Assembly: GCA_019358895.1 (NCBI GenBank)
Contig: JAHHIG010000032.1
Location: forward strand, 1 to 37,839
Length of the DNA stretch: 37,839 nt
Direction of reading: 5' to 3'
Source: Tildeniella nuda ZEHNDER 1965/U140
GTDB taxonomy: Bacteria; Cyanobacteriota; Cyanobacteriia; Leptolyngbyales; Leptolyngbyaceae
Each line of letters begins with the position of its first letter. Positions within the stretch are counted from its first letter, which is position 1. The position numbers were made by a program, and so were the translations under genes. The notes below the pieces were generated by a model. That model saw only the letters and a program-made list of their open reading frames with translations. It was not told the origin of the DNA and made no database searches. Of the stretch, positions 20,135-37,450 are shown piece by piece.

Positions 20135-20588
20135 TGTCTCAAGCGTTGAAAAATAAATTATTTGGTATCGCTCACACTACCTCTTGAACAGCATTCGCTT
20201 CCTGCATATTTTGGAGATTTGGTAGCATTCTTCCGTCCGATCGCGGCTTTTTCAAGCTTTCTAAGCGATACTTTTCTGCTTTGAGTCTTTACTCATCCCC
20301 CATCACTAATCAAAACAATGTGAACTGAGCAACTGCTAATAGTTCACCAGCCTTGTTTTTGCTTAGTCAATATTTCGCTTGCGTTTCGCCATAGTTGCCT
20401 GCTAGTAAATTTCCTTCACTCTGCTGAGCTAGCTTTAAAAGCCCGTGATATAGGAAAAGCCTGACACCCGTTTGATACCTAAAGTTGAATGCCCCTTCTG
20501 AAACTCTTTAGTTTCGTCGATTTAAGACAACCATAGTATGGTTCAAATCAGCGTCCGACAAAAGGTGGAATATTGGCTGAAATCGGAA
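20135..20588. other. intergenic region without a recognisable gene
   Basis: About 450 bp between the hypothetical gene and the tRNA. I find no open frame with coding character, no tandem repeat and no clear hairpin. It must contain the promoter of the leftward hypothetical gene. Confidence 0.4.
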
Positions 20589-20660
<72 letters not shown>

Positions 20661-20779
20661 GAGAGCTTAGAAATTGTACTGCGATCTGTGTTCTGTTGAA
20701 CAAGGCAGAGTAGAGATTCTAGCAGATTACAGCCAGCTTTTGGCAGAATGAGTACTGTTTTTCCTTGGCACGGTGAGCA

Positions 20780-21589
20780 TCAATCTTGACTCAACTCTGT
20801 GCCGTCTGGCATGGTTGTGCGACAGAGCTTAGCTCCGTTCAACTCAACCCCTTGAAACTCAGCCCACCGAAGGTCGGCATCCTGCAAATCAGCGTCCCAC
20901 AGTTCGGCTCGCCATAGTTCGGCTCCCCGGAGATTTGCCTTCTGTAAATTGGTCTCTCGCAGATTGGCTCCCGACAGGTCAGCGTCGCGCAAATTTGCCT
21001 CTTGCAGATTGGCTGCGTGGAGGTTCGCTCCACGCAAATTCGCTTGTTGGAGGTTCGCTCCGCATAAGTTTGCCCCTGATAGGTTGGCAGCTTGCAAGTC
21101 AGCATCTTGTAGGTTGGACCTTTCGAGATTAGCCTCCTGCAAATCAGCCTTAGGCAAACCAATCCTGGCTAAATTGGCACCAGAGGCATCTAACCCGCGT
21201 AACGAAACGCTGTCTTTATGAAGATCTTGAAGGGCGATCCGGCGAGCATAGCTGGTGGAGACATTTGCTGCTGCGGCGTTGTCAATGACACGCCACGCTT
21301 CATAATGCTTTTGGGCTCTACGATCGGGCGCTTCTTTCAAATAAAGAATGATCGCGACAACCACTGCAATCGATTGCGTCTGAGCGAAAATGGCTTTAAT
21401 GGTTTCGCGAGCGATCAGGTCTTGAAACGAACGGATTTGGATGTCATCCTCAGCCCACAGCGCTAATGCTGCCAGGAAAACAACAGCTACCATGATCGCC
21501 AGCCAGGTGGGAATGGACTGGACAGTTCGTTCCAGTTGACGTGTGAGCTGAGAGGGTTTCCCTTTCATCCGTCCGTTACGGTCAGTCAT
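20780..21589 (-). CDS. membrane-anchored pentapeptide-repeat protein
   Basis: Protein of 269 aa. Two hydrophobic segments (WLAIMVAVVFLAALALWA at about 29-46 and SIAVVVAIILYL at about 73-84) anchor it. From about residue 133 to the end runs a long right-handed beta-helix domain of some 24 pentapeptides of the A(N/D)LXX type (repeats such as ANLQE, ADLSG, ANLRG). Such proteins are abundant in cyanobacteria. Their molecular role is mostly unknown. It lies between the tRNA and the P-loop ATPase and reads the same way as both. Confidence 0.85.
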   Translation of the reverse strand: MTDRNGRMKGKPSQLTRQLERTVQSIPTWLAIMVAVVFLAALALWAEDDIQIRSFQDLIARETIKAIFAQTQSIAVVVAIILYLKEAPDRRAQKHYEAWRVIDNAAAANVSTSYARRIALQDLHKDSVSLRGLDASGANLARIGLPKADLQEANLERSNLQDADLQAANLSGANLCGANLQQANLRGANLHAANLQEANLRDADLSGANLRETNLQKANLRGAELWRAELWDADLQDADLRWAEFQGVELNGAKLCRTTMPDGTELSQD

Positions 21590-21631
21590 CCTTTACCTTA
21601 GAACCGATCAATGAATGCATCAGCTTAGCAC

Positions 21632-23086
21632 TCAATCTTTTAAGCTCAAAAAAATGTCAAAGGCAGGATGAACTCGAAACTTCTTGATATTCTCTAGATT
21701 GACCGTTGGTAGCTCGTAGTGTCCCAGATACGTCCCTTTTTTGGTTGCATCATTCCCCGCTTCTGGTATCCAAACTTTCAAGAAGCCAATCTGCCAGAGC
21801 ACTTTCTTCAGTTCCAGGTAATCCATTTCGGCAACCCAGTCTGTGGCGCGATCGACATGCACTTCACCACAAACCATGGAGAGCAGTAAATAATCCAGAT
21901 CGTTTTTTTCAAAGCAGCAGCTCTTTCCTCTAAACACCTCAAACACGTCTAACAAATGAGGGTATTGAAATCTGTATTCTGAAGCTAAATCCTTCGTTTT
22001 TTGCTCAGAGTAAATTTCCTCGGCTGCCATAATAGCAAACTCATCGATCTTTTTGGTGCCCGAATAATATTCTCCGCACAGTTTGCAAAATTGCAGTAGC
22101 TCTCTAGGACGTAGTTGCGTTCTGCCGATGATATAGTCCGTAGAGTCCTCAAACTTAGAATCTAACTTAGAGGTAAAAACTGATTTCCAACGGTTTAACG
22201 TATCTAATCTAGACGTTTCGGGAAACGAATGGGCAATTCTTAAACCAATGAGTTCAAGTAACTCATTTTTACCCCAACGAATGACCTCAACATCTTCTCT
22301 AATTTTTTGAGCGTCATCGTAGATTTGAGGAATATTATCAAAGAGTTCCTGGCGAATGGAAACATAGACTCGAAGTCCAGGGCTAATCAGGTTGATTTTT
22401 TGAGTGGCTTGAAATAGCCCTGCAATAAAATATTTAGCATCTTCCGAATCGTCCCACCCCTTGTCTAGCTCATCAATTAAGACCTTCATTCTTGATTTTT
22501 CTAAAACTTTCTTCAAGCTAGGAGTTAGACTTTTGATTTCTTCTAAACTGTAGAGCGCTTGAAGATTTCTTGACTTTGCAGCGCTTTCGTGGGCATCTAA
22601 TTTAACGGTCTCTAGTTTTTTCAGGTAACTAACCAGAACGCCGATCGGACTCAGCCCTTTCATGCTGGAGTCAGCATTGACGTAATTGTAAATATCGCGT
22701 TGAGGTCCCAATAGTAAGCCGCGCTTATTCTCGACGATTTTATTGAAAATGAGATTATAGAGAAGATATTGCCATGCTACTGAATAGGAACTCTGTTTAC
22801 CCCAAGAACCTTCATTCTCACGCTTCAAGTATTCCGACAGTAATTCGTAAGAATATTCTTCTGGCGATAGCTCTAAAACTAAATGTCCTTTCTTCGCTTC
22901 TGTCGAAGCAATATATTTAAAGATTGCACTCTTGCCAGTCCCTCGATTGCCAACCAAAATCGTCTTTTTGCTGTTCAGAAATTTTTGATACGTCGAGTTC
23001 TGATAGAAATATTCTGATAAACCGACTGTGATATCTCTTTCTGCGGAATCAGAACCAAGATTTAACTTCTGAATGTCTACCAGCAT
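21632..23086 (-). CDS. P-loop ATPase, Sll1717 family
   Basis: ATPase of 484 aa. The Walker A motif GNRGTGKS is at residues 46-53, and a Walker B-like MKVLIDELDKGWDD lies near residues 202-215. The order and the helical C-terminal half match the Sll1717-type STAND-like P-loop ATPases of cyanobacteria. These are often found as isolated genes or near defence genes; their function is not established. Codon use and A+T richness differ somewhat from neighbouring housekeeping genes. It ends 42 nt before the pentapeptide gene on the same strand and starts 86 nt from the radC remnant. Confidence 0.75.
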   Translation of the reverse strand: MLVDIQKLNLGSDSAERDITVGLSEYFYQNSTYQKFLNSKKTILVGNRGTGKSAIFKYIASTEAKKGHLVLELSPEEYSYELLSEYLKRENEGSWGKQSSYSVAWQYLLYNLIFNKIVENKRGLLLGPQRDIYNYVNADSSMKGLSPIGVLVSYLKKLETVKLDAHESAAKSRNLQALYSLEEIKSLTPSLKKVLEKSRMKVLIDELDKGWDDSEDAKYFIAGLFQATQKINLISPGLRVYVSIRQELFDNIPQIYDDAQKIREDVEVIRWGKNELLELIGLRIAHSFPETSRLDTLNRWKSVFTSKLDSKFEDSTDYIIGRTQLRPRELLQFCKLCGEYYSGTKKIDEFAIMAAEEIYSEQKTKDLASEYRFQYPHLLDVFEVFRGKSCCFEKNDLDYLLLSMVCGEVHVDRATDWVAEMDYLELKKVLWQIGFLKVWIPEAGNDATKKGTYLGHYELPTVNLENIKKFRVHPAFDIFLSLKD

Positions 23087-23171
23087 AGTTGATTCAGGCT
23101 TATTGACTATAGCTGAATTGTTTAATTCTCACATACAAAGAATTTGATGTCCAGTTACCGACGGAAACGCA

Positions 23172-23387
23172 CTAATCCTCTTGAGGGCACTCGCTCCATA
23201 AATTGCTCGTCTGGCGCAGGCTCAGAAAATCACCATTGCCCAGGATGAGATGGTCAAGTAAGGGAATGCCCAAAAAGTCGGCACCCGAAAGCAATTGGCG
23301 TGTGAGGCTAATGTCTTCGTTGCTAGGTTCAACATTGCCAGAAGGATGGTTATGCGCCACGATCACCCATGTAGGCGCTAAACCCAA
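23172..23387 (-). pseudogene. radC: radC C-terminal fragment, interrupted by the mobile element
   Basis: About 70 codons of the RadC C-terminal JAMM domain. [18 protein letters not shown] has the metal-binding HxHPSG...D signature, and [18 protein letters not shown] plus SECPQ form the usual RadC ending. RadC proteins are normally about 220-245 aa; the N-terminal helix-hairpin-helix part and the first half of the domain are missing. Going upstream on the minus strand, similarity fades just before PTWVIVAH, around 23368-23385, and 26 nt beyond 23387 the recombinase gene starts on the other strand. The frame has no proper start. I infer that the missing half lies at the other end of the element. 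Confidence 0.85.
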
Positions 23388-23412
23388 ACCACTTTTGTGG
23401 TATCTTGCTGGA

Positions 23413-24813
23413 ATGCTCCAACTTGAGTATACAGACGGCTATTGCCGCGTCAGCACCCAAAAACAAGCGACCTACGGCAGCGGGCTCGATCGCTACCGTG
23501 AAGATTTGGCGCGTTATGGAGTACCGGACGATCGTATCTTCTCTGATATTGAATCAGGCAGTTCTGAAAGCCGCGCTGCTTACAATCAAGTGCTGCAAAG
23601 AGTGAGGGATGGCATTACAAAGCAAGTAATTGTCCCCTGCTTTGACCGCTTCACCCGATCACCGATTGGCTGGGAAGAGGCGATCAAAGATTTCAGGCGA
23701 TATGGAGCCAAACTAATCGCACTGTCAGGTGGAGCGGTTGACTTTAATTCGCCAGAGGGGATATACCGCAGTCGGATGGACGCGATCGCGGCTGCTTATG
23801 TCAAAGAAAAGAATCAGTATGCCGCCCTGAGGGGATGGGAGCGTACACGCAGACTCAACAAAGCCGTCAACCCACCATTCGGTATGGCAGTTGAAAAAGG
23901 ACGCTACATTATCAACCGTGGCGAGTACTGGCAGGGTGGCAAGATTGATGAGGTTGCCCTAGAAGTTGTTCAGACCTTTCTAGCGGTTGGCACTCAACGC
24001 GGTACAGTGCAAAAACTGTGCGCAAAGTATGGTCTTCGTAAACCTGGCAGTAAATGGGCTGAAGATTTTCCGCGCGATCGCGACAAATTAGTCGGCTGGC
24101 TACAAAATCCCGTCCTGCGTGGCTATACTGCCTACTTTGGGAACAGAGGACGTGAGCGGTTGATTTGCTATGACGACCCACACGAAGCCTTAATAGATCA
24201 GCAGACAGCAATGCAGATCGATCGCTTGTTGTCTGCAAAGTCCCGTAAAATGCTGCCTGTTCAGGCTACTACATCAGTGATGAGTGGCTTAGTGTTTTGC
24301 GAATGTGGCTCAAGCTGTATGCGTCGCCGGCAATGGTTTTACTGCATCAACGCTTATGACAATCCTCACGTTGAGGAGCGCTGCAAACTGAGGCATGGCG
24401 TAAAAGCATCGGCATGTGAGCAAGCGGCAATTTGGGCAATCGTGACTCAAGCTGAATATGTTGCAGGCTTGGCTGAAGCAACGGTTCAAGAAGACAACCC
24501 AGAAGCGATCGCCCTCAAATTGAAACTTGAAAAACTTGGCGATGACCCTGATTTTGAAGATTCCCGGCAGGCGCTTAAGCAACGCATCCAAAGTTTAGAA
24601 CATCTGCAACGGCAGTCAGTGGTTAGCCTGCATAGCAAACGAGAGGCATTGATCGCTGTAGGCTCCGATCCTGCGTTTTGGGTCAGCCTAGACGATTTAG
24701 AAAAACGGTTTGTTTTCACCCAACTGATCGATCGCGTCGTCAAAAGCCGTGATCGTATTTTGTATGTAGATCTAGCAGATGGCTTAGGCAGCATTGCTTT
24801 TCAACAGTTCTAG
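23413..24813 (+). CDS. XisF-like large serine recombinase (integrase/excisionase)
   Basis: Site-specific recombinase of about 466 aa. The resolvase domain opens with [11 protein letters not shown], containing the catalytic serine in [16 protein letters not shown] is the DRxxR block and a long helix follows (about residues 125-155). The recombinase domain begins at NPPFGM. A zinc ribbon lies at about residues 300-335 (FCECGSSC then later cysteines), with a coiled-coil stretch (about 370-410) and a C-terminal tail. GYCRVST is like XisF of the Anabaena fdxN element. The ATG at 23413 is chosen because it opens on the catalytic domain; the longer frame to 23203 is merely antisense to radC. It begins about 40 bp from the junction, the usual place for such a gene, and presumably integrated the element and could excise it. 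Confidence 0.88.
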
Positions 24814-24960
24814 CACTTCCGTAATCTGCTCTTGCGAAACGTTGCCCTGGATTGCTAGGATTTCAAGTTTAGCAATCGCCTGCTCTTTAGCTTGCTGCTT
24901 TTCGTCCCAGTCAAGCATTTTAGATTTAATTGTTCCCCAGTTTACTTGTTTAGCGGTCAT
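24784..24960 (-). CDS. small helical protein (58 aa)
   Basis: Open frame of 58 codons, MTAKQVNWGTIKSKML at the start and [10 protein letters not shown] at the end, with a lysine/glutamine/glutamate-rich centre typical of a short alpha-helical or coiled protein. It is the last leftward gene of the element operon and overlaps the 3' end of the convergent recombinase by 30 nt. Only 5 nt separate its start from the preceding gene's stop. No family recognised. Support is the coding-like composition and the continuous packing. Confidence 0.55.
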   Translation of the reverse strand: MTAKQVNWGTIKSKMLDWDEKQQAKEQAIAKLEILAIQGNVSQEQITEVLELLKSNAA

Positions 24961-24965
24961 CTGCC

Positions 24966-25178
24966 TTATCCCTTTGTAGTTGTCGTGTGCTTACCTGTCT
25001 CGCGGAGTTGCTCGATCGCTGCCTCCCTTGCCGCCATCAATGCATCCCGTTGCCCTAGTCCCAATGAATCGTTAAGCAAAGCTGTGGTGGTGTCGCTGAG
25101 AATGGAGTAGAGATCGCGCGGTAGTGCCTCCTGCCATGCCTCTAACTCGTATGCCGCCATCAGTTGTTCAAATGACAT
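24966..25178 (-). CDS. small phage protein of unknown function
   Basis: Protein of 70 aa, acidic and helical, beginning MSFEQLMAAYELEAW. The ATG at 25178 gives an 11-nt overlap with the preceding gene and follows AGAAGAAGACG. A TTG at 25211 in the same frame is less likely. No known domain. It belongs to the leftward operon. Confidence 0.6.
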   Translation of the reverse strand: MSFEQLMAAYELEAWQEALPRDLYSILSDTTTALLNDSLGLGQRDALMAAREAAIEQLRETGKHTTTTKG

Positions 25179-25416
25179 TTGATTCGTCTTCTTCTGTGCT
25201 AGTGCGTTCAACTATCCAAAGACCCCAAAGCTTATGCGCTTGTCGTTTGAAACCGAGATTTGATAACTCTTGATCAAGTCGATCTAATGACCCGTAGGGA
25301 ATCACAGCGATCGCCATTACAGGCGGATTGGCAGGGTAGTTCCAATGGAGCCAGTGGCGCACAAAACAACTATTGCTCAGTCTCTGAACCACCTTCAGAA
25401 AAGCGTTTAGAGTCAT
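25168..25416 (-). CDS. small phage protein of unknown function
   Basis: Protein of 82 aa containing FVRHWLHWNYPANPP and a C-terminal KLWGLWIVERT strand-like segment. The ATG overlaps the stop of the preceding gene as ATGA. No family recognised. Confidence 0.6.
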   Translation of the reverse strand: MTLNAFLKVVQRLSNSCFVRHWLHWNYPANPPVMAIAVIPYGSLDRLDQELSNLGFKRQAHKLWGLWIVERTSTEEDESNVI

Positions 25417-25931
25417 GACCGTTCCCCTGCAAGGTTTTCATCACGCCACACTCTCGCTGCGTTAGTCAATGCATGTGCCCCAAGCTTCTGCCCTCGCTCC
25501 TCCAACCAAGCGGCGAAGCCTTCACTCGCCTGCGCGATCGCCTCTTCCCGTGTTTGCTTCCCTGCCTTAAGCGCGATCGCTTCACTGATCAATTCCTTGA
25601 TGGTGCTGCGATTTTCGCCAGTCTCTAAATCCATCAAGCAGCAGTGGTAACCAGCCTCCATCCATTGCTTCTCTTCGTCACTGGCAGGCGCGATCGGGCT
25701 TTCCCTTTTGGGTTCAGTAGCGCGATCGACTATGGTTTGCCAGTAGTTTTCGCTCAATGCGTCCGGCGAGCCGTCGATCTCTCCTTCCTCCAGTGCTTGG
25801 TCTGGTAGGTGCAACGGGAATGCTTTAGCAAGGATTCGTTTAGGTGCATAGACATCACGCCAGAGGTGGGCAGCCAAAATCACGCCTGTAAGTGTCCAAG
25901 TGCCCAGCATGAGCAGGCAGAATTTATCCAT
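25413..25931 (-). CDS. single-span membrane protein of unknown function
   Basis: Protein of 172 aa starting MDKFCLLMLGTWTLTGVILAAHLW, which forms one N-terminal membrane helix, followed by a soluble charged domain rich in Glu, Lys and Ala. The ATG at 25931 lies 2 nt after the dCTP-deaminase-like stop. A longer reading from a TTG at 26066 would run entirely over that gene and is rejected. No known domain seen. Confidence 0.65.
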   Translation of the reverse strand: MDKFCLLMLGTWTLTGVILAAHLWRDVYAPKRILAKAFPLHLPDQALEEGEIDGSPDALSENYWQTIVDRATEPKRESPIAPASDEEKQWMEAGYHCCLMDLETGENRSTIKELISEAIALKAGKQTREEAIAQASEGFAAWLEERGQKLGAHALTNAARVWRDENLAGERS

Positions 25932-25933
25932 GA

Positions 25934-26422
25934 TTACCCTTTTGATACTTGAGCAACAGCGTCCTTGTTGTAACGTCCAGTGATTTTGTAGCTTCTCAAT
26001 GGTCGTTCTGTGGCATGAAAAAAGACCTGCCCAATCTTGAAGCCGGGATAAATAATCAACGGGCAAAACCGTCGATTATTCTTAATCTCCAAAGTCAATT
26101 TGCTACCATTCCAACCGTTATCAAGCCAAACGGCTAATGCTTGATCAAACCCTTCTCTAGCGCGAGACGACTTTAAACGAAACTCGCCGCAAATTGTTTC
26201 TGGGATGTTAAATGTTTCAAGTGTGCTGATCAGAAGAAATTCACCAGGAGATATTGCGTACTCACTAACGAGCGATCGCGGCTCCATACCATTCATATTC
26301 TCAACAACGATCGTGTTACCTACTCGCACATCTAATGAAGCAGGATTTAACAGAGTCTCGTCAAATGGATCGATCATTCCTTGCAGGCAAAGAGAATGGA
26401 TTTGATAGTCAACTAGAGGCAT
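25934..26422 (-). CDS. dCTP deaminase-like protein (Dcd/DUT superfamily)
   Basis: Protein of 162 aa of the trimeric dUTPase/dCTP deaminase fold. NPASLDVRVG near residue 26, FRLKSSRAREGF near residue 81 (the SSxAR block of Dcd) and WLDNGWNGSKLTLEIKN near residue 98 are conserved; in the last, the final Glu corresponds to the catalytic Glu of Dcd. PGFKIGQVFFH and a C-terminal RYNKDAVAQVSKG, like the flexible nucleotide-closing tail, complete it. It would supply dUMP/dTTP precursors for element replication. It is slightly shorter than E. coli Dcd. Confidence 0.78.
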   Translation of the reverse strand: MPLVDYQIHSLCLQGMIDPFDETLLNPASLDVRVGNTIVVENMNGMEPRSLVSEYAISPGEFLLISTLETFNIPETICGEFRLKSSRAREGFDQALAVWLDNGWNGSKLTLEIKNNRRFCPLIIYPGFKIGQVFFHATERPLRSYKITGRYNKDAVAQVSKG

Positions 26423-26720
26423 GTTTAGCTTTCCCTACTGTGGATTGTTTTGAGGCGTATTCCAAGCGTCGATCGCCTGCACAATCAAAGCATCGATCGT
26501 CCTCTTTAAGTTCTGAGTCTCCAAGCAATGCTTCTAGCATTTTGACAATGACATTTTTGCTTGATGGCTGAAATGATTCGCTAGACAAAAGAGCATGGGC
26601 TTCTTTGATATTTGCTTCTCTACCTTCTGTCGTTAGATGCAAAAGAATGACAGGGTTAAGCGATCGACTGAGATGCCTAAAGTTAAGGACTTCGTTAGTA
26701 ATTGATGTGGTTTGGGTCAT
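26409..26720 (-). CDS. phage protein of unknown function
   Basis: Protein of 103 aa, mostly helical, with an isolated CFDC pair near residues 77-80. It overlaps the dCTP-deaminase-like start by 14 nt. ATG at 26720. No family recognised. Confidence 0.6.
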   Translation of the reverse strand: MTQTTSITNEVLNFRHLSRSLNPVILLHLTTEGREANIKEAHALLSSESFQPSSKNVIVKMLEALLGDSELKEDDRCFDCAGDRRLEYASKQSTVGKAKHASS

Positions 26721-26731
26721 GGGGTATAGCT

Positions 26732-26959
26732 TTATTCAATGACAAATACAAGTTTGTCTGAAAACGGTGTCAAGGGACGATTGGTTAACCGTGTTTTTTC
26801 TTGGTCAGTAAAACCGAGATAGAACTCCTCCAAACCCCTTGATTGCGGTGTGGTGACATCAGAGTAATCAGGGTTTGGTGAACATGGGTAGACTATTTCT
26901 AGATCGCCATGTTCGCTGTGTACTTCTTGTAATTTCGTCATTAGTTCTGACAATTTCAT
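26732..26959 (-). CDS. small phage protein of unknown function
   Basis: Protein of 75 aa starting MKLSELMTKLQEVHSEHGD, followed by LEIVYPCSP. The pattern of a short helix then xGDLEIVY is common in small phage proteins of unknown role. AGGAG lies 9 nt upstream of the ATG, a strong ribosome binding site. Confidence 0.65.
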   Translation of the reverse strand: MKLSELMTKLQEVHSEHGDLEIVYPCSPNPDYSDVTTPQSRGLEEFYLGFTDQEKTRLTNRPLTPFSDKLVFVIE

Positions 26960-27080
26960 GCGAGATCGCTCCTGTTGTAATTTTTCTTGACTGTGCTAAT
27001 TCGCACTTAAGTTGGTAGATGAGTTTTGCCCAGAGGTAGCGATCGCGCAACTCAAAGGGGCATTCTGATAGTTGGTTCAT
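26868..27080 (-). CDS. small phage protein, probably frameshifted at its 3' end
   Basis: The frame starts with ATGA overlapping the stop of the ASCH-type gene and reads MNQLSECPFELRDRYLWAKLIYQL, a coding-like helical start. It then continues 92 nt into the next gene, unlike any other pair in the operon. Reading one base back in the AAGAAAAATT run (near 26983) would give a protein ending in a TGA that forms the usual ATGA overlap with the next start at 26959. I infer a one-base loss or a -1 shift. As written the product is 70 aa. Confidence 0.5.
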   Translation of the reverse strand: MNQLSECPFELRDRYLWAKLIYQLKCELAQSRKITTGAISHEIVRTNDEITRSTQRTWRSRNSLPMFTKP

Positions 27081-27769
27081 ACCGCTTCCTCTAGCCGTCT
27101 GAATGAAACAATCCAGACGAAAGGATTAGAATCCCACGGATGCTTTTCAGCGTTGATAGAATCCCAAAGCGACATAAATGAAGCAGTAGCACTGGTGCGT
27201 TTGTCATGCCCTGTAGCGTGGTCTGCACAATTGCCGTAGCACTTCCAACCGTCGCCGTCTCGCTCAACACCTTCAGCAATCGCGTCTGATTCACTGATAT
27301 CTTTGAGTCGTTGCACGCGAATATCTGTCACTTCGAGGACGAGTCGACAAACAGAACGCGGCATGAAGATTGACGGCTTCCATCCTGCTGTATTGCAATC
27401 AGGTTCTGGGACTGATTTACCACAGCGATATTTCATGTCTGCACGATAGGCAAAGCACTCGTGCGTTTCAGACAAGGCTGATCGCCAAGTCTCACGGCAC
27501 CAAAGCCGATCGCATGTCTGCCCGTATGGGCATTTCAGATCAGATCGAAAACTAGACTTAACTCGGTGCCCGTCGCTGTAGTAGAACTCCATCCAACACT
27601 GAACGTCTTGGTCAAATGTAAAACCGTCAAAATTCCCAATCGATGAAATGCGGGGCCGAGGCTTAATCACCCGTCTCGTCTGCGTCTTCCGTCCCTCCAA
27701 AATGGCTCTTACCATTGCTCCAGAAAATAAAATCGGTCGTTCCTTAATTGCTAAAAGTTGTTGAGTCAT
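27077..27769 (-). CDS. ASCH-type phage protein
   Basis: Protein of 230 aa. RPILFSGAMVRAILEGRKTQTRRVIKPRP at about residues 12-40 (outlined) is the well known opening of a prophage family with an ASCH/PUA-like fold, likely RNA or nucleotide binding. LWCRETW, FMPRSVCRLVLEVTDIRVQRLKDISESDAIAEG and FMSLWDSIN are the other family blocks. The function in phages is unproven. It overlaps both neighbours by ATGA junctions. Confidence 0.8.
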   Translation of the reverse strand: MTQQLLAIKERPILFSGAMVRAILEGRKTQTRRVIKPRPRISSIGNFDGFTFDQDVQCWMEFYYSDGHRVKSSFRSDLKCPYGQTCDRLWCRETWRSALSETHECFAYRADMKYRCGKSVPEPDCNTAGWKPSIFMPRSVCRLVLEVTDIRVQRLKDISESDAIAEGVERDGDGWKCYGNCADHATGHDKRTSATASFMSLWDSINAEKHPWDSNPFVWIVSFRRLEEAV

Positions 27770-28275
27770 GCTGCTTCCTTCTCCTGTTGCTGTTTCAAAA
27801 CCAATCGATTGAACTCTCTTTTGGGGTCAATCTTTTCCGGGTAGCGCTTAATCTCTACCAACCCATCGTTAAGCAATTGCTGTGCGATCGCTTCTGCTTT
27901 TGCTGGTGTCACAGCCAATAATTTTGGCAATCGTGAAAGGTGGATTGATTGCCACTTGAGATGCCCTAATAACTGCTGTTTCTTGCTTGGTGGCTGGGGC
28001 AAAGTTGCCTGTATCGGCGCGGCTAATTGTTGCTCTGCTTTGGATGGTCTAGGTGCACTACCAACCTGAGCGATCGCGGCTTCATAGGCAGCAAGAGCCT
28101 CTTGAGCATCAGCAGTTTCTTTGTTGAAATAACTGTTATGGACACAAGCCTCTCGCAAGATTGACTTACGATCGGGCATGGGCGTTTTGGTGGCAAGCGC
28201 CTTTGCTTGAGCATTGGCGATCGTCTGCATGACAACCTTGTGATGCTTAGCCGTGAATTTTTGCAGCTCCTGCAC
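27766..28275 (-). CDS. C-terminal part of a frameshifted, internally duplicated protein
   Basis: This frame encodes the second half of a protein whose first half is read from 28463. It can start by itself only at a GTG (28275) without a ribosome binding site. Residues from QELQKFTAKHH to AALAAYEAAI-like positions repeat the pattern of the upstream part. The C-terminal third contains a winged-helix-like region (HLKWQSIHLSRLPKLL, AKAEAIAQQLLNDGLVEIKRYP). Its stop overlaps the ASCH-type gene start by ATGA. Confidence 0.6.
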   Translation of the reverse strand: MQELQKFTAKHHKVVMQTIANAQAKALATKTPMPDRKSILREACVHNSYFNKETADAQEALAAYEAAIAQVGSAPRPSKAEQQLAAPIQATLPQPPSKKQQLLGHLKWQSIHLSRLPKLLAVTPAKAEAIAQQLLNDGLVEIKRYPEKIDPKREFNRLVLKQQQEKEAA

Positions 28276-28463
28276 GGCTTTTCATACGCTTCTCTGGCAG
28301 CAACAGATGGGGCTGTGCCATAGCAAAAGTATTTATCACTCACACCAGCTAACTTACAAACTTGATACTGGCGGATTTTGTAAGTACCGCTAGCGATCGC
28401 TGTTTGCTTGGCTTGAGCGATCGCCTCTAAAACTCGCTCTTGTGGGGTTGATTGTGTGTTCAT
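28023..28463 (-). CDS. N-terminal part of the frameshifted, internally duplicated protein
   Basis: From the ATG at 28463 (ATGA overlap with the upstream gene) the first 62 codons are coding-like: ERVLEAIAQAKQTAIASG, RQYQVCKLAGVSDKYF (helix-turn-helix-like) and AAREAYEK. After GAAAAG near 28280 the frame becomes basic and low in quality, while the -1 frame continues as AVQELQKF. With one extra A the two frames join into a single protein of about 231 aa. I read the rest of this frame, to 28023, as out-of-frame translation. Confidence 0.6.
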   Translation of the reverse strand: MNTQSTPQERVLEAIAQAKQTAIASGTYKIRQYQVCKLAGVSDKYFCYGTAPSVAAREAYEKPCRSCKNSRLSITRLSCRRSPMLKQRRLPPKRPCPIVSQSCERLVSITVISTKKLLMLKRLLLPMKPRSLRLVVHLDHPKQSNN

Positions 28464-28747
28464 GATGCGTCCCTCGCACTACGATCGACCAAAACTTTAG
28501 TCATTGCCATATTTGTTTCAGGGGCTGGAAAACCACGCCAATTTGGTTCAAGCAGATCTAATGCATCAATAGTTTCATTCCACCAAGTCGTGCCGCAGAT
28601 ACTGTTTGGCTTGATGCCAAAAAACCTAGCAGCGTCACGATCAATTGCTGTGTAGCTGTAGCCTTTTATTTTTTTGCGAGTACGCAGCCGTGCCAATAAA
28701 TCAGCGGGCAATTGAACGGAACAAGTATCATTCATGGTGGTGGTCAT
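28460..28747 (-). CDS. small phage protein of unknown function
   Basis: Protein of 95 aa. LPADLLARLRTRKKIKGYSYTAIDRDAARFFGI suggests a small DNA-binding, possibly helix-turn-helix, N-terminal half, followed by a TWWNETIDALDLL segment. Starts at the ATG at 28747 or 28735. It overlaps the next gene by ATGA. Confidence 0.6.
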   Translation of the reverse strand: MTTTMNDTCSVQLPADLLARLRTRKKIKGYSYTAIDRDAARFFGIKPNSICGTTWWNETIDALDLLEPNWRGFPAPETNMAMTKVLVDRSARDAS

Positions 28748-28791
28748 AATTTTTGGGTTTGGCGGTTGGGTTGAAAGACGCGATCGCCTTT

Positions 28792-28959
28792 TTACTTTTC
28801 GATGCCAGGTGATTTCTGATAAAGCGCTTCCAGTTGTCTACGGTCTGCCTCAATGTCTGAAATCGCCTTGAGTTTGTTGGTCGTCTGCCAATAGCCGATC
28901 GCGGCTTGGCAAAAAGCGACGGTGGGGAGTGCGAGGAGGATGAGGAGTGCGATCGTCAT
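28792..28959 (-). CDS. small single-span membrane protein (55 aa)
   Basis: Frame of 55 codons. MTIALLILLALPTVAFCQAA forms one membrane helix, followed by a charged helix ending in YQKSPGIEK. The ATG overlaps the RusA stop as ATGA, exactly like neighbouring junctions, which supports it despite its size. In position and layout it resembles small phage membrane proteins such as Rz-like or holin-like peptides, but there is no evidence for such a role. Confidence 0.65.
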   Translation of the reverse strand: MTIALLILLALPTVAFCQAAIGYWQTTNKLKAISDIEADRRQLEALYQKSPGIEK

Positions 28960-29423
28960 GCGGCACCTCCAATGTTGGAATTAGCGCGAATAGTTTGAGG
29001 TATTGCAGCGCCAACCACGACAGGGAACCGAATGATTTCACGCAAGGGGCGATCGCTTACCGTGACCGTTACGCACTCCTCCTCAAGCTTTCTACCCACC
29101 TTCACAGCAGGGCGAAAGAACGGTGTCACAGCCTGCACCACTGAGAAGCTGTCATCAGCGATCGTGCCTGCATCTTTCAGCCCGTCGAGGATGAACTTGG
29201 CTGATGCCACCGTGTTATCCCAATCGCGTGATGTATAGCGCTGTAAGACAAAATCAAGGGTGATCCACACGTCAGCAGAGAACTGATGGGAACCACTGGC
29301 AGCCCTGGCTACAGCAGCGGACCATTGATCTTTCGTGCGGGCGCTTTTTGTCCAGTGCGATCGCGCCTGGTTGATCTGTTCGTTCAGTGTCGGTGGTAAA
29401 GGGATGGAAAATTGTGTAATCAC
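28956..29423 (-). CDS. rusA: RusA-like Holliday junction resolvase
   Basis: Endonuclease of 155 aa that cuts recombination intermediates. SRDWDNTVASAKFILDGL (about residues 64-81) and the following DAGTIADDS carry the conserved aspartates of the RusA family (RDxDN..K.ilDgL...i.DD). The start is a GTG at 29423 overlapping the previous stop as GTGA. Family members are common in lambdoid and other prophages. Confidence 0.88.
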   Translation of the reverse strand: MITQFSIPLPPTLNEQINQARSHWTKSARTKDQWSAAVARAASGSHQFSADVWITLDFVLQRYTSRDWDNTVASAKFILDGLKDAGTIADDSFSVVQAVTPFFRPAVKVGRKLEEECVTVTVSDRPLREIIRFPVVVGAAIPQTIRANSNIGGAA

Positions 29424-29620
29424 GCTGCTAAATCCTCCTGCCTATAATCCCAATGCGTCAGACAGTAGCCATCACCGTCATTGTCAAAATGCACTGGCTG
29501 ATTTTTGCAATGCTCATCGCCGCAGCAGTGCATGTGTGAACGAATACCGTCAGCGGTTTCCGGCTCATCTGCAAATGTCTCGTCAAGCCAATCACTTAAA
29601 AGCTGTTCTAGTGGTTCCAT
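29420..29620 (-). CDS. small Cys/His-rich protein, probable zinc binder
   Basis: Protein of 66 aa with an acidic N-terminal helix (MEPLEQLLSDWLDETFADEP) and a C-terminal set HMHCCGDEHCK, then VHF and GYCLTHW, which could bind one zinc. The ATG at 29620 has a strong GGAGG 7 nt upstream. A TTG further upstream is less likely. It slightly overlaps the RusA gene; the polymerase gene ends 11 nt upstream. Confidence 0.65.
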   Translation of the reverse strand: MEPLEQLLSDWLDETFADEPETADGIRSHMHCCGDEHCKNQPVHFDNDGDGYCLTHWDYRQEDLAA

Positions 29621-29631
29621 AAAGCCTCCAA

Positions 29632-31626
29632 TTACTTCTCTGACCAATCACTACAGACAACGCTCTCAGCGCTGTACGGATTTTCGTAAGCGGGAATGCT
29701 GCGAACAAAATAGGCAAGTGCAGACTGCATTGCCAGCCAAACGGCATAGCCTGCTGCTTCTGCGTGTTCTTCCTTGCAAAGGCAATTCAATTCATCGTGG
29801 TTAATGTTGCAAAGCCTCAAGCCCCATTCAGGGTTAACCTCAGCCGCTAACCGGATTTGGTGCATCGCAGTTTTGATGCTGTCAGCCTCAACTGTCATCC
29901 AAGCAACCATCACGGCATCAGTCGGTTTAGCACCACCGTAGCCACCCTCTTTAGCCTCCCAAATGGGCAGGAACACACGCCGACCGGATAGCCCTACAGC
30001 CCATGTGTAGGGAAGTTTGCACCCTTCAAACCACACTTTGTCTGTACGGATGGAACGCTTAACGCGATCGTGATACTGCTTGACTCCTGAAAAGCTAGCT
30101 TGCAGCAAGTCAATGATGCTCTGGGCAAACTCAACCGTGCAACGGAAACCACCAATCTCAACAGTGGCAGCAGTTTTCTTAGCACCAGCCCCATTCAGCC
30201 AACCATAGAACACGTTTTTAGCAATGTTCCGTAGTGTGGTAGCTAATTTCCCTTCAGCGTCCTTTTGCTTGCGGATCGCGCTGATTTGCTCACGGGTCCA
30301 GTTGCGGTCTGCTAGGGTAGAAAGCTTGGCAGCGACGATCGCATGAACATCCACATCATCGATATAGCTCGCTTGGAACAACTTATCGCCTGTCGTTTCA
30401 GCCGCAATCCGGGCATGGGCAGCCGAGTAATCTACTACCAGAAGTTTGTAACCAGCAGGCGGACGAAAGAGCGATCGCACCGGTGGCAAATGCAAGACTG
30501 CTACTTCAGGACAGGCTTTTGATGGATTAGGGGGGTTCTGGAGGTTAACCGATGGCACTCCGTTAGACTTGCCTGACGTACTCCTACCTCGCCCTTGTGG
30601 AGCGCATTGGCGGTAGCCACCCCTGATGGCTCCGTCTCGGTAAGCGAGTTTGCAGTTCGCTAAATAATCCAGGTAGGCACCGATCGACCGGGTAGCCAGT
30701 AGTGATGAAATAACAGGGTGCGATCGATGTGGGTTCAGCGCTTCCTTATCAGTCTTATCGACGTTGATACTGAGCTTTTCACGAATTGCTGGTGGCAGTT
30801 TGGCGTTGTCATCCACTGACAGACCGGGGAACGTGGCATTGAATGGCTTAGCTATTTCGTCCGCTGCTGACTGGTATTGCTGCGTAATATTTTCAAGTGC
30901 GGTGCGATCGGCGGGGAAGCCGTACACGCTCATCTCAGCAAACGCTGGCAACGCCCCAAACTCTGCAAGGCAAGTGTTAGATAACCCTTGCTCTGTACAC
31001 ATTAGCCCCAGCTTCTGCCACACCTTAAACAACACGGTGGTGTCGTAGGCTGCATAATTTAGCTGTTCGTTGGTTAGCGCCCAGCCCCAGTCCGATCGCT
31101 GCTGTGACTGATCAATCTCAAACCCCAGCCGCTCACAGACTGCTTTCAAGCTATGGCGGTACTGCTCAATGCCTGCCCAGTAAATCTGAGACAACAGCAT
31201 GGTATCGGCACACTTCCAAGGTTTGAAGCCGTAGAGCTTGATCAGCCACTGAAGATCAAAGTTCAGGTTGTGCCCTACAGTCCACTGGTCTTTAGATTCA
31301 ACGCTGGCTTTGAGTTGAGCAAAGAAACCAAGTGACTCTAGACGACTGATGAGAGTAGCGCGATCGTCTTCCCAACCGCCTAAATCAGCAATCAGGCAAG
31401 AGCCATCACGTAAACCAACCTGAATGGTACGGATTAGCCCTTTCCAGGGGTCTAACCCATCCATCTCGCCTTCGCCATAGGTTTCAATGTCTACGGCTAC
31501 CGCTGTAGCATCTGACCAAACATCAATGAACTTAGCTATCTGTCTGGTGCTGGCTGTACGACTGTAGATGATGCCACTGTTAAGCGGCACGTCTGCAAAC
31601 AGTAAGGAGTGTTGGTGGGTCAGCAT
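29632..31626 (-). CDS. family A DNA polymerase with 3'-5' exonuclease domain
   Basis: Replicative-type polymerase of 664 aa. An N-terminal DnaQ-like proofreading domain has AVDIETYGE (D46 and E48), GHNLNFDLQWL and YAAYDTT, giving a full exonuclease set. The polymerase domain carries motif A DYSAAHARIAAETTGD (about residue 395), motif B RNIAKNVFYGWLNGAG (about 470) and motif C NINHDELN (about 609). Motif A is unusual: the Glu of the canonical DYSQIELR is replaced by His. At the position of the Phe of E. coli Pol I motif B there is Tyr. No 5' nuclease domain is present. The ATG at 31626 overlaps the primase stop as TAATG. It would copy the element DNA. Confidence 0.88.
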   Translation of the reverse strand: MLTHQHSLLFADVPLNSGIIYSRTASTRQIAKFIDVWSDATAVAVDIETYGEGEMDGLDPWKGLIRTIQVGLRDGSCLIADLGGWEDDRATLISRLESLGFFAQLKASVESKDQWTVGHNLNFDLQWLIKLYGFKPWKCADTMLLSQIYWAGIEQYRHSLKAVCERLGFEIDQSQQRSDWGWALTNEQLNYAAYDTTVLFKVWQKLGLMCTEQGLSNTCLAEFGALPAFAEMSVYGFPADRTALENITQQYQSAADEIAKPFNATFPGLSVDDNAKLPPAIREKLSINVDKTDKEALNPHRSHPVISSLLATRSIGAYLDYLANCKLAYRDGAIRGGYRQCAPQGRGRSTSGKSNGVPSVNLQNPPNPSKACPEVAVLHLPPVRSLFRPPAGYKLLVVDYSAAHARIAAETTGDKLFQASYIDDVDVHAIVAAKLSTLADRNWTREQISAIRKQKDAEGKLATTLRNIAKNVFYGWLNGAGAKKTAATVEIGGFRCTVEFAQSIIDLLQASFSGVKQYHDRVKRSIRTDKVWFEGCKLPYTWAVGLSGRRVFLPIWEAKEGGYGGAKPTDAVMVAWMTVEADSIKTAMHQIRLAAEVNPEWGLRLCNINHDELNCLCKEEHAEAAGYAVWLAMQSALAYFVRSIPAYENPYSAESVVCSDWSEK

Positions 31627-34550
31627 TAAGCCCAACCTCCTTCCTGCATAGCTTCGTACTCATCCCATAGCAACAAATCACTCAGATTAATCTCGGTATT
31701 AACCATCTCTAGGCGTGCTTTGACGGAGCTATAAAGCCGTGTGATTTGAGCACCCTTGCTGTTTACCCATGCTGTAGCAGAGTCGGGATTGACCAAAGCA
31801 ACGCGATCGCCAACCTTAAACCGACCTATTGAAACCACTTCTTGAGCAGGGATTGTCTTACCTTGTGGCTTGGCTGCTTTAGGCAATGTTTGAGTGCTAA
31901 CTGTCACATTTGGCTGAGTTGCTTTATCTTCTGACCCCTCCCCCCCCGTCACTTCCTGAGAAGATGTTTCTGAATCAGCTGAAAATGGCTCTGTGTATGA
32001 AGAAAAATTATTCGCAGATTCTTCCCAAGCTTCTTCCCACTGTTCTTCGTTATTCGCAGTGAGAATAGTTTGCGAATAGTTTTGTGAATAAATTTCTCCT
32101 TGCTCTGTATAGGTTTCAGCGTTTTTAGAAGATGTTCTCATTAGATCACTAGGGGGGGTGTCCCCTTCATCATCTAAACCACTAACTGTCACACCTTCAG
32201 GCAGCGCATAAACCCACCTTCGTTTGTCAGTAGACGATCGCCGCCGTGTAATTTGTCTAGATTCTTCCATCCGATCAAGAACCCTATAGAGTTCTTTACC
32301 CATGTTTAAGCGATCGTTGATTTCAGAAAACTCCATGCCTTTTGGTGCGATCGCAGCTAGCACTTTAAGAACCGATCGAGCCTTTGTCTTAAAGGAACTT
32401 TCAGAGCCATCTTCATCAAGCAATGTGTAGATGCCAAGCGTTCCCCACTCTTGCCGCTGATTGATGGTGATCTTGACCTTGAACTCCTGCACTTCACGAC
32501 CTTTGACCAGTTCCAATAAACGGAAAGGGTTAGCGGGGTTTTGTTGATCAACGCGATCGAGCGTGTAGCAACCCCAGAAAGCAGCAGGTATACGAGCAGA
32601 GCCAGAGATTTTGTTAATGCCTCTAGCTAGTGGGTCCTTGTTCGCGTGGTGTGTGAGCACCCCAGATGCCCCGTAACGGCTCAACAACCCTTTAAGCTTG
32701 TAGAGATAGCGTGCAAACTCAGGGTCTTTCTCAGAGACACCGACATTCATGCAAATAGTGGTTACTGAGTCGATAAAGACTACATCCGGTCGCCAGTCTT
32801 CTAGTTCTTCTTCCAGGTCCGAGAGGTTTGTAATGTCAAGATCAGTCCACACCTTAAAGTTTTCAAGTTTGAGCATATCTACACCACGTAGCTTTAAGCG
32901 TCGCATGGTGGAATGCTCCGACTCATCACAACTGATAAACAGTACCTTGCACTCTTTAGCGGCTTGCTCTTCTAAAAATGTGCCTTTGCTTAAAGCAGCG
33001 TGAATCATGTCTGCTAGTAAATTTGTCTTACCAGCACCAGCAGGGGCAGATAAAAGAATGGACTCACCAGCAGGCAAAAAGCGTGAGATTAGGAAGTTGA
33101 GAGCTTCACTGCCTTTGCTGAAAAAGTCTAGACCTGAGTAGCGGCTTTGCTTGACTGGGTGGTTATCGGCTTCCAGTTTGATAATTTGCTCAGTGAAATC
33201 CTGCTTAGTGATGCGATGTACCGCGCAAACTTCGCTACGCATGATCAAACGCATGATCGGGTCAGGTTCTTGCAGGTATCGCTGTAGTTCCAGCTTTAAA
33301 CGATTGGCTCTGCCTGCGATCGTATTGTCGGCTGTCTTTTCGCTAGGCACATCAGCGGGTTTATCCGTTTCTGCCTCAACTTTTGCTGCCTGTGCTCTGG
33401 CTTCTTTCGCTTCCTTAAGCGACTGCTTGACTGCATCGGGGCAATGCTGCTCAAATACGTTGCGATCGAGCTTCAGTATCCGTAGCCAGTTACCTTCTTC
33501 ATTGCCGCCCGCGTGTTCGCTACTGCTGTGGCATTCAGTCGGGCTGATTGTCTTCAGAATGCGCTCCCATTTGCCATCATCCTGCCCGTTGTCGATGCGC
33601 TGCCATGCGACGGCTGCTAAGTCTTCTGTGGTGCCACTATACGCAAGCTGATAGCGTCGGCAGAAGTTCTCCCAGCCGTACCATTCTTGTGCTGCTCTGG
33701 TTAGTGCTGCTGAGCGATCGTCGCCCTCTAGCTTTCCTTGCAGCAAGTCTTTAGAAAACTGGTTGCCTAACTCTCCCAGACGGAGGGCACCAGGCACATA
33801 AGCAGTACGGTTAATGGTGCGATCGCTAACCGTTTGATCTCGCTGCCTAACTGGGTAAATACCCAAGTCTTCCAGCGACTCAATGAAAACTGGCTCGTCA
33901 CGGTGGTAGTTGATGTATGGGGTGCCGGATGGTCCCACAGTCGGAGCCAAAACCGTAAAGCGCCCAGCTCCTAAAACTTGTCCGCGCTGTTTGCCGCCAG
34001 TCTCTAGAGCAAAGTTTGTATAGCCCGGTGCCTGGTCAAGCTTGACTGCTAAACGGAAACCGCCAGAGTGTGTCTTTTCCCACCACGAAGACTGTAAAGC
34101 CTCATGTGTATTGAGAATGCCGTAGAACCAAGTATCAAGTTCATCCTGGTTGCCATCAAAGTCTTTCAGGTCAGGGTCAATCCAGTAAGTATCATTCCAG
34201 CCGCCCAGAGTCCCTACGCCGTTGATTGGGTTGGCAAACCAGCGGCTAAGGTCTTCACGAGTCGGTAACTGGTCTTGGAACTTATTGTGGTTAACTAGCC
34301 GTGGGTTACCGTCGCGATCGATGTAGCTTGGATTCTTACCAGTGAAAGCAGGAATCGGATTGCCGTCTGCATCACGCTTGATTGCACCATCTTTTGTTTT
34401 AGCAGGGAATTTGCTATGATCTTGAAATGGTGCGACTGGTAAGGCTGGATAACCATTTGCGACTAACCAACGCACAACTATCTTGACTTCGTTATTGCCT
34501 TGAGCGGGTTGCTTAGCGAACCCTAAACCTGATACTTTTTGTTCAACCAT
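31626..34550 (-). CDS. primase-polymerase / RecA-fold helicase fusion protein
   Basis: Replication initiator of about 974 aa. The N-terminal 250 residues resemble a bifunctional primase-polymerase (prim-pol) domain: WLVANGYPALPVAPF, GVGTLGGWNDTYWIDPDLKDFDG with acidic metal ligands, and HSGGFRLAVKL. Near residues 505-512 is Walker A APAGAGKT, and VVFIDSVTT near 590 is Walker B, followed by GVLTHHANKDP as in RepA/RecA-like (AAA_25) helicases. The C-terminus has a winged-helix-like stretch and a long acidic Ser/Thr-rich linker. I start at the ATG at 34550 (MVEQKVSG) because the next 5' segment is a duplicated copy read out of frame. It would open and prime DNA for the polymerase behind it. Confidence 0.82.
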   Translation of the reverse strand: MVEQKVSGLGFAKQPAQGNNEVKIVVRWLVANGYPALPVAPFQDHSKFPAKTKDGAIKRDADGNPIPAFTGKNPSYIDRDGNPRLVNHNKFQDQLPTREDLSRWFANPINGVGTLGGWNDTYWIDPDLKDFDGNQDELDTWFYGILNTHEALQSSWWEKTHSGGFRLAVKLDQAPGYTNFALETGGKQRGQVLGAGRFTVLAPTVGPSGTPYINYHRDEPVFIESLEDLGIYPVRQRDQTVSDRTINRTAYVPGALRLGELGNQFSKDLLQGKLEGDDRSAALTRAAQEWYGWENFCRRYQLAYSGTTEDLAAVAWQRIDNGQDDGKWERILKTISPTECHSSSEHAGGNEEGNWLRILKLDRNVFEQHCPDAVKQSLKEAKEARAQAAKVEAETDKPADVPSEKTADNTIAGRANRLKLELQRYLQEPDPIMRLIMRSEVCAVHRITKQDFTEQIIKLEADNHPVKQSRYSGLDFFSKGSEALNFLISRFLPAGESILLSAPAGAGKTNLLADMIHAALSKGTFLEEQAAKECKVLFISCDESEHSTMRRLKLRGVDMLKLENFKVWTDLDITNLSDLEEELEDWRPDVVFIDSVTTICMNVGVSEKDPEFARYLYKLKGLLSRYGASGVLTHHANKDPLARGINKISGSARIPAAFWGCYTLDRVDQQNPANPFRLLELVKGREVQEFKVKITINQRQEWGTLGIYTLLDEDGSESSFKTKARSVLKVLAAIAPKGMEFSEINDRLNMGKELYRVLDRMEESRQITRRRSSTDKRRWVYALPEGVTVSGLDDEGDTPPSDLMRTSSKNAETYTEQGEIYSQNYSQTILTANNEEQWEEAWEESANNFSSYTEPFSADSETSSQEVTGGEGSEDKATQPNVTVSTQTLPKAAKPQGKTIPAQEVVSIGRFKVGDRVALVNPDSATAWVNSKGAQITRLYSSVKARLEMVNTEINLSDLLLWDEYEAMQEGGWA

Positions 34551-34732
34551 TTGGATGTACCTATGTTTTAGCAGGGAATTTGCTATGATCTTGAAATGGT
34601 GCGACTGGTAAGGCTGGATAACCATTTGCGACTAACCAACGCACAACTATCTTGACTTCGTTATTGCCTTGAGCGGGTTGCTTAGCGAACCCTAAACCTG
34701 ATACTTTTTGTTCAACCATTTGGATGTACCTA
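34395..34732. repeat. exact 169-bp tandem duplication over the 5' end of the primase gene
   Basis: Positions 34395-34563 and 34564-34732 are identical over 169 bp; the match stops exactly at both outer ends. Each copy contains the ATG and the first 51 codons of the primase-polymerase gene plus the AGGTACATCCAA leader. Because 169 is not a multiple of 3, the upstream copy cannot be read in frame into the gene. Confidence 0.95.
34561..34719 (-). pseudogene. truncated duplicate of the primase 5' end (52-codon leader frame)
   Basis: The upstream repeat copy encodes MVEQKVSGLG to FPAKT, identical to the start of the primase-polymerase, then hits TAG at the duplication joint. The stop is 10 nt before the intact start at 34550. 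It could be translated as a short peptide and couple to, or compete with, the real start. I infer a recent duplication or an assembly artefact rather than a functional gene. Confidence 0.6.
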
Positions 34733-34767
34733 GAAAGACGACGAATGGGGGACTGGCGTAGTTAGTG

Positions 34768-37050: not shown

Positions 37051-37081
37051 TGCTCTGATCCTCGTAAGGTTGATAGATTGC

Positions 37082-37378
37082 TTAAAAATTAATCTGGGTT
37101 AAAATTGCTCCACTCTCAAGCACGAACTCGTCTGCACTGAGCGGATAGCTAAAGTTCGGAGAGCAATCAATGTGGTAGTACTCTCTGCCAAAAGCTTTAG
37201 ATCGGAAGCAGTGCGTATTGGAGTGAGCCGATCGCCCCATATACTGACAATCATCAAAAATCTCTTGCCAGCGTTCAGGGTCTTGCGTTGCTTGTAAGCG
37301 ATCGCGCAGCGCACCCCACATCAGCCACCATTCAGGGTGGTACTGATTGATCCATTCAGTTTGTGTTGCTGTAGGCAT
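37082..37378 (-). CDS. small phage protein of unknown function
   Basis: Protein of 98 aa, Trp- and Tyr-rich, beginning MPTATQTEWINQYHPEWWL. Two cysteines lie in FDDCQYM and NTHCFRS. I prefer the ATG at 37378; a GTG at 37441 would add a hydrophobic leader resembling a signal peptide but has no ribosome binding site. No family recognised. Confidence 0.6.
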   Translation of the reverse strand: MPTATQTEWINQYHPEWWLMWGALRDRLQATQDPERWQEIFDDCQYMGRSAHSNTHCFRSKAFGREYYHIDCSPNFSYPLSADEFVLESGAILTQINF

Positions 37379-37450
37379 GGCTTTTAGAGGTAAAGAGTGA
37401 AGAGAAGAAAGGGCGATCGCACCTGCTAAGGCCCGGTACACACAAGGAAA

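Follow-up and report, generated by a model that had tools for sequence, protein, structure and literature searches.

A radC gene split by a prophage with a XisF-like serine integrase in a cyanobacterium of the family Leptolyngbyaceae

The split radC gene and its empty site

The window, a stretch of 37,839 nucleotides of Tildeniella nuda ZEHNDER 1965/U140 that makes up contig C33 of the genome (G000; window coordinates are given as bare numbers or as W), carries the C-terminal part of radC on the reverse strand and, next to it, a serine recombinase gene on the forward strand. The radC piece lies in an open reading frame at 23172-23387 (-) that matched positions 66-119 of the 121 in the Pfam RadC profile (E=4e-20). 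Of its 71 codons, 64 belong to RadC (residues 180-243, which with the stop codon span 23172..23366) and the first seven come from the element. The preliminary description had reported the last 70 or so codons of RadC with an intact HNHPSG JAMM motif and a natural C-terminus; the C-terminal remnant is confirmed with a count of 64 codons, the motif is kept, and the C-terminus agrees with that of intact RadC proteins from the same genus. Similarity to RadC, first described as ending near 23370, runs to 23366. This position is the edge of the 8-bp direct repeat GTGATCGT (23359..23366, -), which begins at radC codon 180. The recombinase gene points into the element and starts with an ATG at 23413, leaving 46 bp between it and the radC edge, where about 40 bp had been estimated.

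The other piece of the gene, encoding residues 1-182, is on contig C34 of the same genome (C34:70792-71337, -), where the 8-bp repeat recurs at C34:70793-70800. When the halves were joined in silico at this repeat, they formed a single open RadC frame of 243 aa, and the rejoined protein aligned over its whole length with the intact RadC proteins of all six genomes compared from the same genus (88-95% identical). Besides the two halves, a Pfam search found no further radC in the 6.08-Mb assembly of 38 contigs. The right end of C33 and the left end of C34 carry one 15-bp tandem repeat, identical over 67 bp, and a 33-base pattern of this repeat has no other occurrence in the assembly. We infer from this shared repeat, rather than from reads, that the two contigs are neighbours, so that the N-terminal half would lie beyond 37839 on the same strand. 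The preliminary description had placed it there, had expected an intact frame at a short direct repeat, and had named an intact radC elsewhere as an argument against its reading; the half and the frame were found, and a spare gene was not. The tandem repeat (window 37773-37839 and C34:1-199) is inside the prophage described below and reads by eye as pentapeptide repeats.

The site without the element was found in genome G034, where contig L074 contains W:20588-23368 followed by C34:70793-80000, in order and with a 10-bp overlap. The host flank on the C-terminal side (20588..23366, -) is collinear with this empty site at L074:705-3441, and similarity to C34 begins exactly at 70793 in five of five same-genus contigs compared. 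The element is about 85 kb long, with 14.5 kb in the window (23367..37839) and 70.8 kb on C34 (C34:1-70800), the number of tandem repeats being uncertain, and both junctions assembled in the integrated form only. Two claims, the interruption of radC by a site-specific element and the possibility of rebuilding the gene at a short repeat, were thus borne out by intact halves that rejoin in frame in silico and by the collinear empty site. Downstream of radC, the region 20780-23086 contains a weak ORC-CDC6-like gene and a pentapeptide-repeat gene, and DNA similar to this gene pair is present in three of the five same-genus contigs compared.

The integrase and the prophage genes

The recombinase gene (23413..24813, +) encodes a protein of 466 aa in which a Resolvase catalytic domain (PF00239, E=2e-17) is followed by a Recombinase domain (PF07508, E=8e-6). 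Large serine integrases are roughly 450-600 aa long, and the protein has their domains and size. Its profile also matched the structure of the A118 integrase (E=3e-6). By eye, a Cys-rich segment follows the recombinase domain. Against the NCBIfam model for XisF (NF041201) it scored 288.5 bits (E=1e-85), below the equivalog cut-off of 375 bits. By this score the protein is XisF-like, as it had been called, and not XisF itself. Two close relatives, discussed below, also scored below 375 bits (324.8 bits in G028 and 291.0 bits in G024).

The preliminary description had seen a gene-interrupting element; this holds, and its kind can now be corrected to a prophage of about 85 kb. A simple ORF caller gave 118 ORFs of at least 60 aa in the element, and 15 of the 30 proteins scanned matched a PHROG family. 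In the window these include a dCTP deaminase-like protein of nucleotide metabolism (25934..26422, -; phrog_1663, E=3e-42), a RusA-like Holliday junction resolvase (28956..29423, -; phrog_1682, E=1e-15), a DNA polymerase (29632..31626, -; phrog_17, E=1e-60) whose relatives in Nodularia phage are annotated as DNA polymerase A, and a primase/helicase-like replication protein (31626..34625, -; phrog_19, E=1e-12, and phrog_239, E=8e-11). On C34, PHROG matches identified a large terminase (C34:55971-57452), a tape measure protein (C34:37550-46480; scanned as a 2160-aa part of a 2976-aa ORF), a ParA-like partition protein (C34:11072-12055) and an antirepressor-like protein (C34:26512-27396). HNH endonucleases and a peptidase were also matched. 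Terminase, tail, replication and integration genes are therefore present in one unit, as in a prophage. Among the 30 proteins (of 118) compared with PHROGs, neither a capsid nor a portal protein could be recognised; such proteins may be divergent or belong to the remaining ORFs, and the activity of the phage is for this reason only inferred.

The protein encoded at 35671-37050 (-) is a candidate recombination directionality factor. It matched the Pfam Gp3-like domain (PF18897, E=4e-9, 37 bits against a cut-off of 23.6) and had no match in PHROGs, NCBIfam or PDB sequences, so that one moderate Pfam match points to this assignment. Like Gp3 of phiC31 and phiBT1, it is encoded away from the integrase gene and beside replication genes, but it has 459 aa while Gp3 has about 250 aa according to the available part of PMC5311408. 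The same text lists Gp3 as the directionality factor of phiC31 and XisI as that of the Anabaena/Nostoc system.

Several viral sequences resemble parts of the element. The 11,479 bp of C34 that were compared with the IMG/VR viral contig 3300035002_000022 (70,214 bp) showed 100% identity, and no serine recombinase was found in this contig. Nodularia phage vB_NpeS-2AV2 has a serine recombinase 31% identical over 94% and a DNA polymerase 26% identical over 96%, but its genome is larger (139 kb). A scan of the viral database with the integrase gave only relatives with 30% identity. Apart from the terminase that is 100% identical, the closest terminases (83-86%) are on two viral contigs with diverged serine recombinases (L092-L094, L173, L174); one of these recombinases has 469 aa and is 22% identical to the integrase, and the other is divided between ORFs of 302 aa and 159 aa (23-25%). 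Since the terminases are so similar and the recombinases only 22-25% identical, integrases seem to have been swapped among phages of this terminase group. No radC piece was found in the viral records with the 83-86% terminases, which are fragmentary and were searched without a positive control.

Related elements and their attachment sites

Among 42 genomes of the family, radC is uninterrupted in 34 (a single match covering at least 237 of the 243 residues). It is split at this codon with an integrase inside in three (G000, G024, G028), broken otherwise in G009, G010 and G026, and absent from the matches in G004; in G041 the match is a radC piece that runs to a contig end. In a draw of 386 genomes of the phylum, which did not include G024 and G041, a radC match was obtained in 137, and this split was confined to G000 and G028. 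Second, diverged copies of RadC (55-57% identical and nearly full length) were noticed in G017 (C2:130065-130763) and G210 (C3:118283-119002); these lie on other contigs, each genome having an intact radC as well.

Close relatives of the integrase (48-53%) were found in three of the 41 other family genomes (G024, G028 and G041), the next protein by score being 28% identical. Profile searches of the order (the same 42 genomes) and of the 386 phylum genomes gave no further member of the group. The nearest integrases outside the family are two in G131, with 326 and 304 bits compared with 826-854 for the four, and G131 carries an uninterrupted radC. Contig C3 of G131 has four XisF-like recombinases (L053, L064, L065, L066), and two of the three that were scanned exceed the XisF cut-off. 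In a tree of 13 of the 18 sequences chosen, in which one G131 sequence (G131b) is partial, the four radC-type integrases clustered in one clade (support 1.000) made up of the pairs G000 and G041 (0.986) and G024 and G028 (0.994).

In G024 and G028, radC is split on a single contig with the integrase gene just inside. These elements had been expected to be phages, and plasmid-type genes were seen instead. They are 30.7 kb (G028, C124, L036-L037) and 35.2 kb long (G024, C10, L039-L041), and among the 10 proteins scanned in each there are primases of the D5 or VapE type. The G028 element encodes a Fic protein and an actin-like partition protein with a 63% relative in the G024 element, and the latter has a HindVP restriction enzyme adjoining a cytosine methylase. 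With these primase, partition, restriction-methylation and Fic genes, the two elements look plasmid-like. In an all-against-all search, the G000 element had nothing in common with them beyond the integrase and an HNH match of 28 residues. The G041 contigs have FtsK-like, methylase-like and M23-peptidase-like genes (10 proteins scanned).

All four elements point to the same position in radC. The crossover is predicted at the dinucleotide GT at 23365-23366, the first two bases of codon 180, and in four of four elements a single RadC codon offers a place for it at its first two bases (Val GT in G000, and Ala GC, Ala GC and Ile AT in the relatives). This codon directly precedes Ile/Val-Val-Ala-His-Asn-His-Pro-Ser-Gly (Ile-Val-Ala-His-Asn-His-Pro-Ser-Gly in G000). 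It is codon 180 in G000 and G028 and codon 178 in G024, where the part of radC upstream is shorter by two residues. The three split genes rejoin to open frames in silico, and the integrase gene points inward in all three, from the side of the C-terminal half in G000 and of the N-terminal half in G024 and G028.

We rebuilt attP from the element ends in G000, G024 and G028 and read it directly in G041. In the window, the predicted element-side half of the attachment site (attR, the arm derived from attP) occupies 23367..23412 together with the leader of the recombinase gene. When 60 centres were tested in each attP, the best centre of an inverted repeat was the core dinucleotide in four of four cases, with 13, 17, 14 and 21 of 25 positions pairing and a mean over all centres of 6.3-6.7. 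The core of attB did not stand out for symmetry (6 of 18 there, 9-10 at the best centre). An inverted repeat in attP that is centred on a crossover dinucleotide identical in attB is the arrangement of a serine integrase att site. The XisF-like integrase would thus recombine this attP with attB in radC through a 2-bp crossover, leaving in the integrated state at best a RadC truncated before the JAMM motif. Excision by the same integrase, probably aided by the Gp3-like protein (35671-37050), would restore radC exactly. As chemistry, gene rebuilding is supported.

G041 gives a further view of the two forms. Its radC is uninterrupted across the site on contig C434 (L042), and another contig, C275 (L043), carries the integrase gene and the attP-like inverted repeat. 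The last 119 bp of C275 and of C214 (L070) are identical, and this stretch stops at ATCC, the point where attP and the predicted attL diverge in the orientation of G000. C434 ends 119 bp before the point where attB and attL diverge. Such ends suggest a fork in an assembly graph with k of about 119, and integrated and excised DNA probably coexist in the G041 sample. This was one of the two forks expected; the fork on the attR side was not seen, and the bin yielded no contig with the N-terminal half. Strains that carry the element, mixed with strains that lack it, would leave the same picture in the contigs. With this apparent 119-bp signature at contig ends, public bins could be searched for active elements in general.

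Possible roles and relation to known elements

Taken together, the element is very probably a temperate phage of about 85 kb of a Leptolyngbyaceae cyanobacterium that integrated into radC by means of its XisF-like integrase. Truncation of RadC in the lysogen may be a mere cost of lysogeny, may help the phage by damping the recombination of incoming DNA, or may act as a switch for the host.

Among the uses that go beyond a cost, help for the phage is a possibility that we regard as doubtful. Transformed DNA able to delete the element would be integrated into the chromosome less often once radC is lost, and in this intragenomic conflict the element would have chosen radC for that effect. The available part of PMC4774983 argues in this way for mobile elements in comFA and comM and names radC as another target. 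It fits that a radC-directed integrase is common to different element types, phage and plasmid-like. On the other hand, the same text notes that RadC is not always apparently essential for transformation, and the stability of the target is also a simple explanation for the choice of conserved codons.

A role as a reversible switch for host and phage, with non-lytic excision when RadC is needed, is unlikely. The comK and sigK elements are examples of such active lysogeny, and to our knowledge no condition is known in which cyanobacteria need RadC. The exact restoration of the frame in silico, the lack of a spare radC in the assembly and the probable coexistence of integrated and excised forms in G041 would all be expected of a switch, and so would continued selection on the split gene. 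The dN/dS of the split G000 radC against G034-G038 is 0.016-0.034 (not computable for G039), compared with 0.024-0.047 for pairs of intact radC genes of the same genus (13 of 15 computable). It is 0.034 both for G028 against G027 and for G024 against G018, and intact pairs in the genus of G024 gave 0.010-0.095 (21 pairs). Relaxed selection on the split gene was not seen in this test, which is weak since dS is mostly near or above 1. These values fit selection through excision and equally a recent insertion, which predicts the same intactness. Moreover, carriage looks sporadic and not maintained (three of 42 genomes split in the family, two of 137 radC-bearing genomes in the phylum draw).

The architecture had also been likened to that of the fdxN element of Anabaena. 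As in fdxN/XisF-type elements, a host gene is split, and a serine recombinase encoded by the element, just inside one end and pointing inward, would rebuild it on excision; nearly all the interruption elements surveyed in the accessible text of PMC4874684 have a recombinase so placed. The average length given there is 41.5 kb, and radC is not among the 25 interrupted ortholog groups in that part of the survey. It differs from fdxN elements in that it can be recognised as a prophage, that its candidate directionality factor is Gp3-like, and that its integrase scores below 375 bits for XisF. The target is radC and not a nitrogen-fixation gene, and in the 96%-complete G000 genome the best nifH match had 225 bits against a cut-off of 394, so nifH was not found above the cut-off. 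A heterocyst-type element is disfavoured by this result, and Leptolyngbyaceae are non-heterocystous. A Pfam scan of 35 of the 118 element proteins gave no XisH or XisI domain. The likeness in architecture stands, but a heterocyst programme like that of fdxN probably has no part here, and a developmental element excised in a specialised cell type is very improbable. An artefact, or a decayed C-terminal remnant with an unrelated N-terminal piece, is in substance refuted by the empty site: the halves are on separate contigs, but they match in frame at 8 bp without stops, the empty site is collinear, and radC is split at the same codon on single contigs in two independent cases (G024 and G028).

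The preliminary description had regarded integration into radC by this type of recombinase as undescribed, and this is weakened by precedents in two groups. Transposons of the Tn554 family have tyrosine-type tnpA, tnpB and tnpC, and the integrase of Listeria A118-type prophages is a serine integrase that sits in comK. In its available part, PMC8846945 describes radC as an insertion hotspot of the Tn554 family, and transposons of this family or similar ones in radC also appear in the accessible text of PMC6066798 and PMC11769447. These share with the present element the site-specific insertion into radC, but they carry tnpA, tnpB, tnpC and resistance genes (Tn6674 has 12.9 kb in PMC8846945), while a serine integrase and a prophage are found here. 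In Enterococcus faecalis, radC contains a prophage with an integrase that has its orthologue in a Listeria prophage, and a Bacillus subtilis prophage in radC, known earlier, is mentioned beside it (PMC4774983, available part). Insertion of a prophage into radC is thus already known, and probably by a serine integrase. The Enterococcus case resembles ours in being a prophage in radC, and the A118 integrase structure matched our integrase profile; it differs in bacterial phylum and integrase lineage. In the literature searched, which included few subscription journals, neither radC with a serine recombinase in cyanobacteria nor active lysogeny of radC was found, and a precedent for this integrase lineage and host group as a radC inserter did not appear.

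It is well supported that the prophage in the split radC is real and a member of a known insertion type, and it adds a cyanobacterial family to the groups whose mobile elements pick radC. We consider improbable a wider scheme in which a XisF-like lineage, shared by the phages and plasmid-like elements of one family, has specialised on the catalytic motif of RadC, its elements leave and re-enter radC in living populations as a reversible switch, and phage integrases of this sort gave rise to the heterocyst interruption elements. The points of note are the link between XisF and a phage, the recurrence of one codon across element types, and the snapshot of G041. The four matched pairs of attP and attB, with three core dinucleotides and one clade of cyanobacterial integrases, are suited to testing and possibly to use as integration tools. 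The hypothesis that interruption elements are phage remnants is mentioned in the accessible text of PMC4874684. Here, a recombinase like XisF, whose family is known from heterocyst gene rearrangement, is tied to an element that can be recognised as a prophage, in a genome that has no nifH above the cut-off, and this bears on that old idea.
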